From NCBI GenBank assembly GCA_013619125.1, contig JABXKS010000064.1, positions 62,001 through 126,000 on the forward strand: a DNA stretch of 64,000 nt, read 5' to 3'. This DNA is from Clostridiales bacterium (GTDB lineage: Bacteria; Bacillota; Clostridia; Tissierellales; GPF-1). The first letter of the stretch is position 1; every line of letters starts with the position of its first letter. Positions 4,867 through 49,797 of the stretch are shown here, piece by piece. The position numbers and the translations under genes were made by a program. The notes beneath the pieces are model-generated. The model was not told the DNA's origin, did no database searches, and was given only the letters and a program-made list of their open reading frames with translations.

Positions 4867-5060
4867 TCACTTACAATTTAATTATATGCTCTTTTCTAAA
4901 AATGTCAATTTTGTTTCCGCGAATTTACGATCTGAAAACAGGCTTTTTTTATTTTATTCCTAAACTTGTTAGAATTTGTAATGTATATTTTTTGAAATTC
5001 ACTTTTATTCTCCCATCTTTTAGGTATCATATAAGTAAGTGTATTTTGGGGGAGGAAGAA

Positions 5061-5504
5061 ATGAGAAAACAGGACGGTTTTACCTTGCTTGAATTAGTTG
5101 TTGTACTCGCCATACTAGGAATCCTTTTAGCAATCGCAGTACCCAATTATTTGGGCATCAACGAAAGTGCAGACAACAATGCGCAAGGCGTACAAGCAGC
5201 TTTGATCGCCAAGAGCCTGCAACAGGAATTTGCCGATGATTTTGCAACCGTTGATGAAACACCGGATCCGTCTGTATTGATGGCCGATGATTCCGATGGT
5301 TTGTCCACCATCATAACTGGATTTAAAATCGATGACAATGCTCCAATCCGTGGTCATCTTTGCTTTACTTATCTGACAGCTGCCGATCCTACACCTCCAT
5401 ATTTCGACTACGAAATCACCGATGGCACTGACACACTGACCCTGAAGTATGTTAAGTCAACCAGCGTAACCCTCGACAATCTGGCAACAGTCAATTACTA
5501 TTGA
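5061..5504 (+). CDS. Type IV prepilin-like protein (isolated)
   Basis: A 147-residue protein with a class III prepilin signal: MRKQDG then FTLLELVVVLAILGILLAI, with cleavage expected after Gly6, Glu at position 5 of the mature protein and an N-terminal hydrophobic helix of about 20 residues. The remainder is a short acidic, threonine-rich head with one cysteine. The start ATG at 5061 has GGGGGAGGAAG in front; the frame extends upstream but that part is not protein-like. No prepilin peptidase, assembly ATPase or PilC lies in the window, so it must use machinery encoded elsewhere. It could be a pilin or a type II secretion or competence pseudopilin. Confidence 0.82.
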   Translation: MRKQDGFTLLELVVVLAILGILLAIAVPNYLGINESADNNAQGVQAALIAKSLQQEFADDFATVDETPDPSVLMADDSDGLSTIITGFKIDDNAPIRGHLCFTYLTAADPTPPYFDYEITDGTDTLTLKYVKSTSVTLDNLATVNYY

Positions 5505-5687: not shown

Positions 5688-6686
5688 TTAAATTTCGAAG
5701 GGTGTTTCCAGTGATTTCACCAACAACTGAATCGCTGCTTCCACATCCTCCTTGGAGATCACCTCATGATCCGAATGGCCATAACGGGTTGGGATCGATA
5801 AACAAGATGCTGGAACCCCTTCCTTGGTCAAACTCATGGCGCCTGCATCGGTTCCACCAAACTCCAAGACCTCCATCTGATACTTGATTGTATGCTTCTC
5901 ACAAAGAGCAATCAATCGATCATTCACCTTTGGATGAGACAACAGCGAATTGTCTCGCACCTTAATGGCTACGCCATCATGAAGAGAAACCGCAAATCGC
6001 TTTGCTTCCGGCGTATCGCCCGATAAGGTAATATCCACGGCCAATCCTACATCAGGTTCAATGCGATAGGCGCTGGTTCGCGCACCCCGTGTTCCTACCT
6101 CTTCCTGCGCTGTGAAAACAAAGTAGCAATCATTTTCAACTTTTTCAAGTCGCTTCAAGGCTTCCATCATTACAAAACAACCGATTCGATCATCCATGGC
6201 ACGCGCCATGGCCGTATGCTCCGATTCCACATACTCGCTATAGTATACGCATATATCACCAATCGATACCCAACCGAGGGCTTCTTCCTTGGTTTTCGCT
6301 CCAATATCCAGATACAAATGCTCCAAACGACTCTTCTCGATCGCTTGCTTTTCTTCCCGGCCTACAATACCAATTCGCCCATCTTCAAAGATAAATCGTT
6401 GCCCAATGGTGACTTCCATCATAATGCCCCCGACATTGGTAAAGCGCACAAACCCTTTGTCGTCCACATCCGTAACCATTAAGCCAATCTGATCCATATG
6501 ACCAGCAATCATAACCTTGGGACCCATTCCCTTCTTGTGAGCGATCAGATTACCAAGGGAATCTACCGTCATCTCATCGACATAGTCTTTCATCGCTTCT
6601 TGAATATAAGCAACCACTTTTTCTTCATGGCCCGAGGGACCATAGATCCCTGTAATTTCTTTTAATCCTTCTGAATTGAATTTCAT
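5688..6686 (-). CDS. M42 family metallo-aminopeptidase (copy 1 of 3)
   Basis: TET-type zinc or cobalt aminopeptidase, a family that builds large tetrahedral dodecamers and trims peptides in the cytoplasm. At 332 residues the catalytic set is complete: His63 and Asp65 (AGHMDQ), Asp165 (AMDDR), Glu195-Glu196 (TAQEEVG), Asp218 (AVDI) and His304 (RYGHSDHE). The GTDAGA segment near 279 is intact. A strong AGGAGG lies 9 nt before the ATG, and the gene directly abuts copy 2, so the three copies form one transcription unit read leftward. It is the most canonical of the three. Confidence 0.92.
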   Translation of the reverse strand: MKFNSEGLKEITGIYGPSGHEEKVVAYIQEAMKDYVDEMTVDSLGNLIAHKKGMGPKVMIAGHMDQIGLMVTDVDDKGFVRFTNVGGIMMEVTIGQRFIFEDGRIGIVGREEKQAIEKSRLEHLYLDIGAKTKEEALGWVSIGDICVYYSEYVESEHTAMARAMDDRIGCFVMMEALKRLEKVENDCYFVFTAQEEVGTRGARTSAYRIEPDVGLAVDITLSGDTPEAKRFAVSLHDGVAIKVRDNSLLSHPKVNDRLIALCEKHTIKYQMEVLEFGGTDAGAMSLTKEGVPASCLSIPTRYGHSDHEVISKEDVEAAIQLLVKSLETPFEI

Positions 6687-7703
6687 CTATGCTTCCTCCT
6701 TCTCGTTCACCGACACCCATGCCGTCAAAAATGTTTTCAGACCCTGTAGATCTCGCTCATCGCAAAGCGCTACCGGACTGTGCATATATCGAATTGGCAA
6801 GGCAAGTACGCCTACAGCACGTCCTTCTTCCACCAGTTGCATGAAATTCGACTCAAAATATTGAGTGCCATGTACCACGCTCTGCACGGAGATCGCCGCC
6901 TTCTTGGCGGTTTGTTCTAAACGCTTGCGCAACTTGGGATCCAGTATCGCCCGCATCTCCTTGATCAAGATGCAAGGTCCCGCCCCCAGGGATATCTTCG
7001 ACTGCCGTCCTTTGTGATCCGGTGCATCTGTCGCATCGATACCGTCTAGAATCAAAATTTCATCGGGCCTTGTCCCCCAACTAACGGGGATTGCTCCTCT
7101 TCCGCCAATCAATCGCATAACTGTAAATGCAACCACGATGGTCGCTTCATGCTCTTCTTTCAGCAATTCCAAAACGATTTCAATAGGAAGTCTACTGTCC
7201 AAGGCTTTCCCCTTGTACTTGCGGTCTCCAAAGGCTTCCCCTTCCACTGCTAGGGAAACAAAATCGCCCCGTTTTACTTTTCCCTCAGCTTCCTCTTTGC
7301 TGGAAGCGCCAATATCAAGATACAAGGACTTTCGTCCAATCATTTCTTTTCTTTCCGCGGCCTTTTGAAGGTGAATCGGTTTCGCGCCGATCACACCGGG
7401 GATCTGATCTTTTCCGATCATAATCCGCTTGGACACCCATTGTTTCAGATCAACAGGACCTACGGTTAAAAACTTAATCAAGCCGGCTGAATCAATCTCC
7501 GATACCATCAAACCCACTTCATCCATATGAGCAACCAATAGAATTTCACGCTGGCTTCGGCCTGTTTTCTTTACAACCACATTGCCTAGCGCATCAATCT
7601 TTGGCGTCAATCCCAGTTCCTTGATCTCTTGAAGAATCTGATCACGAACTGCTGTCTCTTCTCCCGATACACCAGGCAGTCCAACTAGTTTGTCTCGTAA
7701 CAC
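6687..7703 (-). CDS. M42 family peptidase homologue, catalytic glutamates missing (copy 2 of 3)
   Basis: 338 residues with the M42 fold and several metal ligands kept: His59 and Asp61 (AHMDE), Asp169 (ALDSR), Asp220 (ILDG), His308 (RYMHS). The Gln-Glu-Glu that supplies the general base and a metal ligand is replaced by Met196-Arg197-Leu198 within TVMRLIGGRG, and the GTDAGA segment has become TQYFESN. It is therefore probably inactive as a peptidase and may serve as a structural or regulatory subunit with its neighbours. The reading frame is intact and well preserved, which argues against a decaying pseudogene. It overlaps copy 3 by 19 bp and abuts copy 1. Confidence 0.85.
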   Translation of the reverse strand: MLRDKLVGLPGVSGEETAVRDQILQEIKELGLTPKIDALGNVVVKKTGRSQREILLVAHMDEVGLMVSEIDSAGLIKFLTVGPVDLKQWVSKRIMIGKDQIPGVIGAKPIHLQKAAERKEMIGRKSLYLDIGASSKEEAEGKVKRGDFVSLAVEGEAFGDRKYKGKALDSRLPIEIVLELLKEEHEATIVVAFTVMRLIGGRGAIPVSWGTRPDEILILDGIDATDAPDHKGRQSKISLGAGPCILIKEMRAILDPKLRKRLEQTAKKAAISVQSVVHGTQYFESNFMQLVEEGRAVGVLALPIRYMHSPVALCDERDLQGLKTFLTAWVSVNEKEEA

Positions 7704-8752
7704 AGCAATTCCTCCTTCTTCTCTCCTGTCATATCCGCAATGAACCTAGCCATTAATTGTCCAGTCACCTCTACATCCTTCATGCGAATTGTTTCAACAG
7801 AGGTATGCATATATCGAAGGGGCAAAGAAATCACCGCTACCGGCACTCCTTGTCTCACGATCTGCATGGGTTGTCCATTGGTGCCGGATCCCGTTGGGGT
7901 CAATTCCAATTGCGTTGGAATTTGATAGGTCTTTGCGGTGTCTAGCATCATTTGATATAGCTTGCGATGGGTGTTGGAACCCAAACTGATCCCAGGACCT
8001 TTTCCCATCTCCAATCCGTCTTCAACAGAAACCTCCGGAGTCATGCCAAATCCAACGTCGACAGCAATGGCAAAATCAGGCTGCCACTTATGCACCCCAA
8101 TGCGCGCGCCAAGCCCCGTTGTTTCTTCTTGAACAGAAGATTGAAAAATCACACGTGCTTCATGCCGCAGCTTTTTCAATTCTTGGGCGCAGGCATACAT
8201 CACCGCAATCCCAGCTCGATCGTCCAAGGCTTTCCCTGTCACGCAGTCACCCATTAAATCCATGGTTTCTCTTCGGATCGTCGCACGATCACCAACTCGG
8301 ATCAAGATGCGAACCTGTTCCACCGGCAATCCGGTATCGATCATCAACTCACCCAAAGGCAAGATCTTTTCTGTTTCATCCGGTGCTTGAATCGCGTTTG
8401 ATTTCGCCGCGATAATCCCAATCACCTGTTGCCGTCCATGGATCACAACCTCTTGCGCCAAGAGGGTGCGAGGATCAAATCCCCCGGCCTGATGAACATA
8501 CAAATAGCCCTCATCCGTGATATCTTTCACCATTAAGGCAATCTCATCCACATGGGCGTCGATTAAGATGATCGGCGGATTTTCACTGCTCTCCGTTGGT
8601 TCTTTCACGGCATACACATTCCCCATGCGATCTGTTTCCACCGAGTCGACCCATGATGAAAATCCACTCGCAACGACTGCGCTTGCTTCAATTTCCTGGC
8701 CAGAAGGACCATTTGCGTCAGCAATAGCCTTCAAGAATTCTTTCGTATTCAT
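7685..8752 (-). CDS. M42 family metallo-aminopeptidase (copy 3 of 3)
   Basis: First gene of the three-copy operon, 355 residues. All catalytic positions are present: His67 and Asp69 (DAHVDE), Asp177 (ALDDR), Glu209-Glu210 (SVQEETTG), Asp232 (AVDVG) and His316 (RYMHT). The region aligned with GTDAGA reads TGSGTNG. It differs enough from copy 1 to suggest a different peptide preference. The ribosome binding site is AAAGGGGGATGAC before the ATG. The upstream gene (8768-9553) ends 15 bp before it, so it may share that transcript. Confidence 0.9.
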   Translation of the reverse strand: MNTKEFLKAIADANGPSGQEIEASAVVASGFSSWVDSVETDRMGNVYAVKEPTESSENPPIILIDAHVDEIALMVKDITDEGYLYVHQAGGFDPRTLLAQEVVIHGRQQVIGIIAAKSNAIQAPDETEKILPLGELMIDTGLPVEQVRILIRVGDRATIRRETMDLMGDCVTGKALDDRAGIAVMYACAQELKKLRHEARVIFQSSVQEETTGLGARIGVHKWQPDFAIAVDVGFGMTPEVSVEDGLEMGKGPGISLGSNTHRKLYQMMLDTAKTYQIPTQLELTPTGSGTNGQPMQIVRQGVPVAVISLPLRYMHTSVETIRMKDVEVTGQLMARFIADMTGEKKEELLCYETN

Positions 8753-8767
8753 GTCATCCCCCTTTTC

Positions 8768-9553
8768 TTATTGTTCGGCTGTCCACTGTTCAGCCGTCGT
8801 TGAAAATACATTTTCATAGGCTGGATTCTTTAATTTTTCCCACCACTCATCTCGGATTTCCACTTCCTGCATCCGATGATAAGCGGCGCCAATAAAGAAC
8901 TGATACAACATTCTCTCCAATCGAAAATCCGGTGACAAATATCCCTTGAACTCGCCAATCTGATCCGACTCCGCATTTTCTTTCGCTTGCTCCGCCCATT
9001 TCTTTGCTTCTTCAAATTGATTCATCGATGCGCAGGCCAATGCCATAATCGACTCGCTTCCCTTTAAGTAGAAGACACCCTTTGCGTCCTTCAACAATTT
9101 CATGGCGCGAGCAGGTTGTTTCTCCTGTAACAAAAAGGTCTGTGCCAGATATACATCGCGAAGTGCTTTTTGCGGCGCTTCCATATGCTCCATTTCCAAT
9201 TCCGCCAAAAGACTTTCTGCCTCTTTGACTTTCCCTTTGTTTAGATGGCAAATCGCCATATTCATTTTCATATTTTCGATCACTTGCGGATTCTTCTTTG
9301 ACAGCTTCGGCATTTCCCGTTCGTAGATCATCAAAGCATAATCATAATCACCTTTCAACAAAGCTTCCGACAAGCGACGCTTTTCCTTCTGGCGATCGAA
9401 TAGGGTTAAGATGAAAAATAGGATCAAGAGAATCCCATAATGTCGATAGTCAAATCTCCATCCGTTCTTGTAGCCCACAAACCCAACGATTGCCGCAACC
9501 GCAACAAAAATACTGACCAATGGGATTGGTTGTCTCGTTTTCTTTTTCTGCAT
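8768..9553 (-). CDS. Membrane-anchored TPR-like protein
   Basis: Protein of about 261 residues. Two hydrophobic segments lie near the N-terminus (about 12-28 and 38-55, joined by a short GYKNGWRFDY loop), followed by a soluble helical region with tetratricopeptide-like repeats such as GDYDYALMIYE and GKVKEAESLLAELE. The start is the ATG at 9553 with AGGAG 6-8 nt before; the in-frame upstream stretch has no such site. No enzymatic motif is seen. It probably scaffolds protein contacts at the membrane. It is the likely first gene of the M42 transcript, but nothing ties it functionally to the peptidases. Confidence 0.7.
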   Translation of the reverse strand: MQKKKTRQPIPLVSIFVAVAAIVGFVGYKNGWRFDYRHYGILLILFFILTLFDRQKEKRRLSEALLKGDYDYALMIYEREMPKLSKKNPQVIENMKMNMAICHLNKGKVKEAESLLAELEMEHMEAPQKALRDVYLAQTFLLQEKQPARAMKLLKDAKGVFYLKGSESIMALACASMNQFEEAKKWAEQAKENAESDQIGEFKGYLSPDFRLERMLYQFFIGAAYHRMQEVEIRDEWWEKLKNPAYENVFSTTAEQWTAEQ

Positions 9554-9649
9554 GTCCTTCTCCTCTGGTTTCATTATTATTTGCAACTCACATGGACTTA
9601 TTATATCATGGGGCAAATGGAAAAAATAGCCGTTTGAAAGGAGATTTCC

Positions 9650-9958
9650 ATGCAACTATTCGCCTGGGGAGGAATCATTCTTGGATTTCTCTTCGTGATT
9701 ACAGGATTCACCCTGCAAAAGAACCTTTCCGGTCATCCTTTGTCCCGATCGGCAAACCGTCATCAAAGCCCAAGCTTCTACCGGCGGATGCAGGGACAGG
9801 CCTTATACTTTCTTGCCCTTTTTATCTGGATTCCTTCACTCAGGATCGTGCGTGGGCTTGAAACCAACAAAATTGAATTCCTTGTGCTGCTCGGAGTCGG
9901 CCTTCTCATCTTCGGATTCTTCCAATTAATTCTGATTTTTACCAACCGTCGTGACTGA
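9650..9958 (+). CDS. Small hypothetical membrane protein
   Basis: 102 residues with three predicted membrane segments: WGGIILGFLFVITGFTL at the start, YFLALFIWIPSL in the middle, and FLVLLGVGLLIFGFFQLILI near the end. The ribosome binding site GAAAGGAG sits properly before the ATG. It is divergently oriented from the TPR gene and followed by a strong terminator, so it is transcribed alone. I do not recognise the family. Confidence 0.65.
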   Translation: MQLFAWGGIILGFLFVITGFTLQKNLSGHPLSRSANRHQSPSFYRRMQGQALYFLALFIWIPSLRIVRGLETNKIEFLVLLGVGLLIFGFFQLILIFTNRRD

Positions 9959-47321: not shown

Positions 47322-47350
47322 AATCCAATGGATTCTACCTGTTCTATTTT
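47313..47350. terminator. Bidirectional terminator between fbp and the helicase gene
   Basis: 14-bp stem AACAGGTAGAATCC (47313-47326) and its complement (47330-47343), loop AAT. It contains the fbp stop and reaches the end of the converging gene. Confidence 0.8.
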
Positions 47351-49797
47351 TGATATCGACGAATCAAATTTTGTGGAATATCGGCTATCATTCGACTTTC
47401 ATGGGCAAACTGCCCTCGATGATCCACGCGATGCGAGGTGATCGCCAACCTATTTTTCGCCCGTGTCATGGCAACAAAAAACAATCTTCTCTCTTCGTCG
47501 ATTGCTGCAGGATTTTGACTTCTCGCACTTGGAAAAACGCCTTCTCGCGCGCCCACCAAAAATACCGTGTCAAACTCCAGTCCCTTTGCTTGATGCACCG
47601 TCATGACTGCAACCCTGTCTTCACTCTTTCGATACCGGTCCGTCTCATTCCCCAAAGCGGCAATGGTCATCAACTCCCTAAGCGCGTCCATCTGAGAAAG
47701 CTCATCCTCGTCAAAGTCTTGCATCCACCTCAACAACTCGGCCAAATTCTCTTCTCGCCGTTTCCCATCCGGCCTTCGGCTCCATCTTTCTCGAACCCCG
47801 GTCTCTGCCAATACCTTTTCCAAAAGAGCAGCTGGACGTAGCTTTCTTGCCTCTTGTCGAAACACTGCCATCTGCGCGGCAAATCCTTCAAAAAGGTGTC
47901 CCATCTGATCCACCGAATCCATTCTTGCCAAGCGATATTCATCGACAGCCTCCCACAAACGACGAAACAGTTCCACCGTTGCGCCCACATCATCAATGGC
48001 TCTGTGCGTTGGTTTCACTTGAATATCAAAGACTTCGTAGAGATTGCTCAGGGTATAACGCCCCAAATTCGGGAAGAAACGCCGACTCATGTCTAAGGTA
48101 TCATAAGAATAAGGCAGATCGCCCGATATCCCCATCCGCTCCACGTGGCTCTCTACAATGGCACGATCATACCCTACATTGTGCCCCATCCAAATACAGT
48201 CTTTCGAAAAGTCCATAAAATCCTGAATAACTTGCTCTGGATTTTCTCCAACCTCCAGTAAAAAGGCATCGGATAAGCCGTGAACCTCTTCGCTGGAACC
48301 TACCGGACGGCTCGGTCGCAGATAACGGTGAAAGGTTTCCACCACGCCAAAGGCATCCAACTTCATCCCTGCCAACTCTAAAATTTCATCCCGGGCAGTA
48401 TCCAAACCTGTCGCTTCCACATCAAAAATAATCAGTCGTCCTAGCGACAAAGCTTCCCTTAAAAGTCCGTAGGGATCATGATTCTGAATGGTGGATAAAT
48501 CAGCAAAATCTGTCAACCGAAGTCCAATTTTTGATTCTAAACGCAGCACTTGCTGCATCCGCGCTTCTCCAACTCCCTCGATATCCTTCTTTGCCAAACG
48601 CTTAAAGGCGGACAGATCCCAAGGATTGACGATAAGTTGAAGCCACGCAAGGGCGTCCTTCACCTCAGCGCGTCGAAAAAACTTGAATTCTTCAATGGTA
48701 TAATGAGGAATTTCCGCCTGCTTGAATATCTGAGAAATCTCCTTGCAAATCCAGTTGGTTCGAGCCAAGATACCGAAATCACGAAAATCCAACCCATATT
48801 TCTTCTGCAGTCCCAAAATGCTTTGGGCCAGATAATGATATTCTGCTTCTTTATTTTCAAAGGACCCCACAAAGACTGGCGCACCAGCCTCGCCCAGCAT
48901 CGCCTTCATCTCTTGCATCTCTCGATTTTCCAGCTTTGCGATCACCCCTTGAGAAGCTGTTAGAATCGCTTCAGTGGATCGGTAATTTTGAATAAAATGA
49001 ACCTCGATGATCGGCTGAAAATCATTTCGAAACTGCTCCAACAAAACGACCGGCTTCGAGCCTCGAAAACTATAGATCGTCTGATCAAAATCCCCAAATA
49101 AGGCGAGTCGATCCTCCGGTGCGGCCAAGGTCTTTAAAATCTCATATTCCTGTAAGGCCGTGTCCTGCACCTCATCCACTTGAATCCAGGTAAATCGTTT
49201 TTGCCAGGCAGAAATTGCCTCTGGAAATTGGCGAAAAATCTGGTGTGTCATGACCATCAAGTCCGTAAAATCCAAACTCCGTTGATCAAAGAGCCGCTCA
49301 TTATAGACCCGAATAAATCGAGCGCCAACCTCGGGTTCAACTCCATCAGGCCATGGCAAATTCGGTTCCAAAATTCTCTTTTTCATCTGCTCAATCATAA
49401 AATAGATCGTTCGCTTGGACCATTTGCAAGCCTTGAATTCCTCTTCGCGCAAAATTTCCATGGCGATCTCTTTGACGTCTTCCTCATCCAAGATTCCAAA
49501 TTCCGAGGCATACCCCAATCGATGAATTTCTTGGCGTAGAATTTGCACGCACAAGCCATGAAAAGTCTTAACGGTTACACCGCGGGTTTCCTTGCCTGTC
49601 ATCCTGCTTTTCATCTCATTGGCCGCCTTATTGGTAAAGGTGACGCAAAGAATCTCCGTTGCAGGAATCCCTGCTTCAATTGCTGCTTTCACCCGCTCTA
49701 CCAAAACTGCTGTCTTACCGCTTCCTGCCGGAGCCAAAACCAGCAAGGGATCGGCAATGGTTTGAATCACTTGTTTTTGATAGTCATTATATTCCAT
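47344..49797 (-). CDS. UvrD/PcrA-type helicase with inserted DEDDh 3'-5' exonuclease domain
   Basis: 817 residues. Superfamily 1A helicase: Walker A LAPAGSGKTA (21-30), motif Ia TFTNKAANEM, motif II DEVQD (208-212), GDFDQTIYSFRGSKP, motif V TVHQAKGLEFD (733-743) and motif VI VAMTRAKNR. Between helicase parts, residues about 452-615 are a complete DnaQ-like exonuclease: DVEATG (459-464, with D459 and E461), HNVGYD (539-544, D544) and HRAIDDVGAT (H598, D603). Presumably it unwinds and trims DNA ends during repair. GAGTGAGGG precedes the ATG. A weak hairpin (about 49850-49869) separates it from the sigma operon upstream. Confidence 0.92.
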   Translation of the reverse strand: MEYNDYQKQVIQTIADPLLVLAPAGSGKTAVLVERVKAAIEAGIPATEILCVTFTNKAANEMKSRMTGKETRGVTVKTFHGLCVQILRQEIHRLGYASEFGILDEEDVKEIAMEILREEEFKACKWSKRTIYFMIEQMKKRILEPNLPWPDGVEPEVGARFIRVYNERLFDQRSLDFTDLMVMTHQIFRQFPEAISAWQKRFTWIQVDEVQDTALQEYEILKTLAAPEDRLALFGDFDQTIYSFRGSKPVVLLEQFRNDFQPIIEVHFIQNYRSTEAILTASQGVIAKLENREMQEMKAMLGEAGAPVFVGSFENKEAEYHYLAQSILGLQKKYGLDFRDFGILARTNWICKEISQIFKQAEIPHYTIEEFKFFRRAEVKDALAWLQLIVNPWDLSAFKRLAKKDIEGVGEARMQQVLRLESKIGLRLTDFADLSTIQNHDPYGLLREALSLGRLIIFDVEATGLDTARDEILELAGMKLDAFGVVETFHRYLRPSRPVGSSEEVHGLSDAFLLEVGENPEQVIQDFMDFSKDCIWMGHNVGYDRAIVESHVERMGISGDLPYSYDTLDMSRRFFPNLGRYTLSNLYEVFDIQVKPTHRAIDDVGATVELFRRLWEAVDEYRLARMDSVDQMGHLFEGFAAQMAVFRQEARKLRPAALLEKVLAETGVRERWSRRPDGKRREENLAELLRWMQDFDEDELSQMDALRELMTIAALGNETDRYRKSEDRVAVMTVHQAKGLEFDTVFLVGAREGVFPSARSQNPAAIDEERRLFFVAMTRAKNRLAITSHRVDHRGQFAHESRMIADIPQNLIRRYQK

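Follow-up and report, generated by a model that had tools for sequence, protein, structure and literature searches.

Why does an array of three tandem M42 aminopeptidase genes retain a middle member from which the catalytic glutamates have disappeared? In the stretch of DNA analyzed here (64,000 nt, called the window), three consecutive M42 genes, designated A, B, and C, are located on the minus strand. Gene A (7685..8752) encodes an M42 aminopeptidase of 355 amino acids, gene B (6687..7703) a catalytically deficient homologue of 338 amino acids with a GTG start codon, and gene C (5688..6686) a TmPep1050-like M42 aminopeptidase of 332 amino acids. Each of them matches Pfam Peptidase_M42 (2.4e-64 for B). 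The preliminary description of the locus spoke of overlapping genes, which applies to A and B (19 nt), whereas C follows B directly, with neither gap nor overlap. Ribosome-binding sites of the sequence AAGGAGG were read for B (7711..7717, minus strand, within the 3′ part of A) and for C (6695..6701, minus strand, within the 3′ end of B). A promoter scan of the region yielded no more sites than shuffled sequences. A gene with weak TPR matches (8768-9655, minus strand) ends directly upstream of A in the same orientation and is possibly the first gene of the A-B-C operon. On the other side, a short protein (4902-5504) is encoded on the plus strand next to the array, opposite in orientation; a pilin-like N-terminal stretch, GFTLLELVVVLAILGILLAIAVPNY, was spotted in it by eye only.

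By homology and fold, B is a member of the M42 family. It scored 217.6 bits against PF05343 (gathering cut-off 23.2) and covered positions 1-289 of the 292 positions of the profile. Peptidase_M42 was the sole match in a Pfam search up to 0.001, which gave no homology to M16. The structure of B was predicted with a pLDDT of 91.5, and the model superimposed on TET aminopeptidase structures with Z-scores of 43-44 and an rmsd of about 2 Å (Z 44.1 over 336-337 residues in the cases of 5ds0 and 9qr6). PhTET2 (1y0r) served as the reference for the active site, with H68, D182, E212, E213, D235, and H323 as the positions compared; of these, E212 acts as the general base and E213 binds metal (PMC3511314, PMC8993905). 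B retains H59, D169, D220, and H308, which correspond to H68, D182, D235, and H323. In place of Q211-E212-E213 the sequence and the alignments gave Met196-Arg197-Leu198 (7110..7118, minus strand), so that Arg197 occupies the general base position and Leu198 that of E213, with four of the five metal ligands kept. Because two defining residues, the general base and the E213 ligand, are absent, B is predicted not to be an active M42 peptidase.

All six catalytic and ligand positions are intact in A and C, which carry V-Q-E-E and A-Q-E-E, respectively. Hence, the core of the preliminary description, a middle gene with Met-Arg-Leu and conserved His and Asp positions between two copies with Gln-Glu-Glu, was reproduced by the alignment to PhTET2 at exactly the same coordinates. 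Its remark that the middle copy has lost the GTDAGA segment needs a supplement: B reads GTQYFESNF there (GTQYFESNFM, 6840..6869, minus strand), but A is altered in this stretch as well (GTNGQ). The comparison with archaeal TET peptidases does not fit the origin of the DNA, which is a bacterial genome (Bacillota). The M1 metal of PfTET3, which is bound through the counterpart of E213, supports the interface of the oligomer (PMC4745047), and by analogy the loss of E213 may therefore change the packing of B, too.

The same array and the identical Met-Arg-Leu occur in both other genomes of the genus, L007 and L008, with 92% and 87% identity and with Arg197 again at the general base position; the substitution is thus present in close relatives, as expected if the earlier reading was correct. 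In the three pairwise comparisons among the three species, B had a dN/dS of 0.05-0.06; the ratio was 0.04-0.06 in A and 0.04-0.05 in C. These ratios identify B as a gene under purifying selection and not in decay. Chance or an assembly error as the origin of Met-Arg-Leu was ruled out by the three genomes together with the low dN/dS.

The array is widespread. With one profile per class (A, B, and C), the gene order A-B-C was found in all 372 complete loci. Most of these stem from Bacillota, and a few come from records whose titles name other phyla; many of the genomes are metagenome-assembled. When about 400 genomes each were drawn from the class and from the phylum, close to 40% contained a strong B-type match. 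B was deficient in 53 of 363 distinct arrays, deficiency being defined as the loss of at least one of the six catalytic or ligand positions; E212 itself was lost in 48 of these 53. With losses read as irreversible, eight events were counted when the tree was built from the concatenated proteins without the trait columns, and nine when it was built from C only. Besides the genus of the window (three genomes), deficient B proteins were found in f16 (four), f13 (one), a large f28 clade (30), and several times in f53. A loss restricted to the genus of the window is ruled out by the separate losses in f13, f16, f28, and f53. The residues that replace the catalytic pair differ between lineages (R-L, N-K, K-E, G-N, H-E, and others), which fits the independent loss of one constraint. 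Two further observations concern the catalytic columns. At the position of PhTET2 D235, where A and C carry Asp, 98% of the active B proteins carry Glu; among the dead ones, roughly half show Asp. Deviations of C from the catalytic consensus occur in 60 of 329 arrays, and in many of these A and B are active. These deviating C proteins belong to f53, f44, and other families (e.g., L206-L212, L276, L280, L282, L286-L315) and show no link to the loop described below.

A second functional element of the family is the mobile loop, which comprises residues 120-138 in PhTET2 and includes the conserved histidine H123. Deletion of this loop dramatically reduces the activity of PhTET2, and H123 mutants bind the substrate more weakly, with a raised KM for Leu-pNA; across the published TET structures, the loop histidine lies between about 4 and more than 20 Å from an active site. 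In the window, B has the motif GAKPIHLQ (7365..7388, minus strand), in which His111 corresponds to H123. A reads KSNAIQ (8387..8404, minus strand; AAKSNAIQ with the preceding residues), where Ala120 takes the place of the histidine in the KPPHLQ usual for A proteins. The loop of C is shortened and devoid of a histidine. The dead subunit has therefore kept a loop histidine that is absent from its predicted active partner A.

The same distribution was found throughout the arrays. None of the 53 deficient B proteins has lost the loop histidine; along with G118 and K120, H123 is invariant in this group, in contrast to the scattered catalytic columns. In A, on the other hand, the histidine is gone from 47 of the 51 arrays in which B is deficient, compared with 5 of the 297 in which B is active. 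Under the strict definition of deficiency (E212 lost), the figures are 43 of 46 versus 9 of 302. Loop states were scored at fixed alignment columns; when a histidine anywhere in the loop was accepted, the totals shifted little (A without one in 41/46 vs. 8/302). Every one of the 52 A proteins without the loop histidine retains all catalytic positions. C proteins as a class have a shorter loop, with a histidine in 1 of 329, and the state of C did not matter for A: when B was active, the A loop histidine was lost in 2 of 46 arrays with a dead C and in 3 of 220 with an active C, that is, without a link.

Placed on the tree, 13 of 16 losses of the A loop occurred on the 16% of branch length on which B is dead (binomial p 1.9e-8, assuming that such losses fall in proportion to branch length); for the C-only tree the result was 14 of 17 (1.2e-9). 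A stricter test of independent pairs gave three to four concordant and no discordant cases among six pairs (p 0.125), a number of events too small to reach significance by itself. The change is also confined to different domains in the two proteins, as seen when sequences were compared at equal identity of the oligomerization domain (about 0.4). For dead B proteins, the identity of the catalytic domain is decreased (0.32 vs. 0.45) but not that of the loop (0.48 vs. 0.50); for A proteins beside a dead B, the loop is decreased (0.30 vs. 0.46) but not the catalytic domain (0.39 vs. 0.40). The coupling between the A loop and the B site is strong, not absolute. A lacks the loop histidine next to a B that looks active in L040, L064, L076, L208, and L210, and it keeps the histidine next to a deficient B in L282, L367, L368, and L375. 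The former five are possible intermediates that precede the death of B.

Two single-genome cases add to this picture. In L182 (genome G037), the roles are exchanged: A is dead (D182C, E212H, E213Y, and H323Y) yet retains the loop motif RPPH, and B is of the active type with the loop deleted; C is catalytically dead in this array. This mirror array follows the same rule with A and B swapped. In L439 (1634-4009), A and B are fused into one reading frame of 791 amino acids, with a linker of about 80 residues, rich in Ala, Gly, Asp, and Glu, between them; a separate C follows, which looks catalytically deficient. Fusions of B with C or of A with C were absent among the sampled arrays.

Because dead B proteins keep the loop while the accompanying A proteins lose the loop histidine, a heterodimer of A and B with exchanged loops is the best reading of these data. 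If each loop served its own subunit, a dead B would be free to lose it and A would be expected to keep its own. In the proposed arrangement, A would pair with B and each loop would serve the active site of the neighbor, with His111 of B reaching the active site of A. Once the B site had died, the loop of A would be left without a client and its histidine could be lost; the loop of B, which would still serve A, would be kept. The outcome would be a division of labor in which A cuts and B supplies the loop. C, of whose class only one protein in the arrays checked has the loop histidine, may work alone or fill the remaining part of the particle. We therefore consider it probable that B is a selected pseudopeptidase in a hetero-oligomeric M42 aminopeptidase built from A:B heterodimers, in which it donates the loop histidine to A. 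The physical dimer in the source organism, the function of the loop in trans, and the activity of A itself are all inferred from sequence patterns. For the Bacillota operon in general, we lean toward an aminopeptidase that is an obligate heterodimer of A and B and in which the active-site loops are exchanged. In about eight lineages, one subunit would have become a loop donor with a dead site and the other a loopless catalyst, so that the active site would be complete only across the subunit boundary. The earlier proposal of an inactive subunit in a hetero-oligomer is strengthened by the purifying selection, the repeated losses in B, the reciprocal loss of the A loop, and the A-B fusion. It should be modified in two respects: the partner seems to be A in particular and not both neighbors, and instead of a regulatory or structural role, a specific contribution to catalysis, the donation of the loop histidine to the active site of A, is likely.

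A purely structural or regulatory B, acting in spacing, gating, or assembly of a mixed A/B/C particle and keeping its loop to shape the chamber or the pore, is nevertheless a serious contender, if a rather unlikely one. The TET-like fold and the oligomerization domain are kept in B, and mixed dodecamers of M42 paralogues are known from PhTET2 and PhTET3 (PMC4220976). Furthermore, the PhTET2 loop also contacts other subunits, other loops, and pore residues (PMC8993905), and the kept loop of B could therefore matter there instead. Taken alone, however, such a role does not explain why A loses exactly the loop histidine beside a dead B and keeps its catalytic residues, nor does it account for the mirror array L182. 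Quite improbable in our view are three separate homo-oligomers, among which B would have taken on an unrelated binding task (e.g., the sensing of peptides or metabolites) and a coincidental, lineage-wide relaxation would account for the loop pattern of A. TmPep1050, which is of the C type, and the archaeal TETs do function as homo-oligomers (PMC3511314, PMC8993905), and the five arrays with a loopless A beside an active-type B break the rule. TmPep1050 was characterized as an active enzyme by itself (PMC3511314); as it belongs to a class without the histidine, A might likewise do without a donated one. Against separate homo-oligomers stand the loop histidine retained in every dead B, the loss of the A loop with retention of the catalytic residues in several independent lineages, the indifference of this loss to the state of C, and the genome in which A is fused to B.

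The two other alternatives concern B itself. Residual hydrolysis through a rebuilt site, with the retained H, D, D, and H, a metal, and a different general base, could build on H59, D169, D220, and H308, all present in the B of the window. It is nonetheless very unlikely, given that the general base E212 and the ligand E213 are missing, that H68, D182, and H323 are lost as well in other deficient lineages, and that no replacement residue is common to the lineages. Least credible of all is that B is misannotated or in decay, as a passenger gene heading for loss. The missing catalytic pair and the weaker conservation of the catalytic domain in dead than in active B proteins would agree with decay, which is already contradicted by the selection data: the dN/dS within the genus is low and the substitution is identical in three species. 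In addition, the reading frames in deficient arrays are long, the ribosome-binding site of B is good, and the loop motif is invariant. The reading of B as a loop-donating partner of A remains the preferred one.

Among characterized proteins, PhTET2, PhTET3, and TmPep1050 share the fold of B and the PF05343 domain, and PhTET2 also the loop histidine. Among solved structures, 2fvg (TM1049 of Thermotoga maritima) matched the B profile best; C closely matched 3isx/4p6y (TM1050), and A was close to 1vho (TM1048). The genes TM1048, TM1049, and TM1050 follow each other in tandem in T. maritima. Neither a catalytic deficiency of TM1049 nor a complex of TM1048, TM1049, and TM1050 was found in the literature searched. 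The TET particle is a tetrahedral dodecamer assembled from six dimers. PhTET2 and PhTET3 form heterododecamers (PMC4220976), in which the subunits are active and the dimers homodimeric, whereas the array described here includes a subunit without the catalytic pair and its putative dimer is heterodimeric. A precedent in the Bacillota is the M42 paralogue heteromer of another member of the phylum: YtoP and YsdC of Bacillus subtilis were detected as a heteromer by in-cell crosslinking and modeled as a dimer (PMC10090944; PDB 9a5r). It is described only as a dimer of paralogues, with mention of neither a dead subunit nor a tandem array. A functional analogy is provided by the mitochondrial processing peptidase (M16), a heterodimer whose active subunit borrows a substrate-binding loop from an inactive homologue (PMC11266112). 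On the proposed model, B would resemble its alpha subunit as a dead homologue completing an active partner, but the family is unrelated and the loop and the chemistry are different.

No M42 pseudopeptidases and no reciprocal loss in M42 arrays were reported in the literature searched, which included few of the subscription papers. A search for M42, aminopeptidase, and pseudoenzyme in this literature returned a single, unrelated match, and M42 is unmentioned in a 2024 review of pseudopeptidases. Arrays with catalysis and loop on different subunits would allow a simple mutational test of whether the loop serves its own or the neighboring active site. The proposed heterodimer would help to explain the occurrence of three M42 genes in a row in so many Bacillota and would extend the small number of pseudopeptidases known to complete a partner's active site by a case from M42. 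It also implies a warning, since assays of A, B, or C proteins one at a time may suggest inactivity or give misleading results.

Apart from the M42 array, a UvrD-type helicase is encoded in the window (47344-49797, minus strand), in which an RNase_T exonuclease domain (residues 456-611) is nested in the C-terminal helicase domain.
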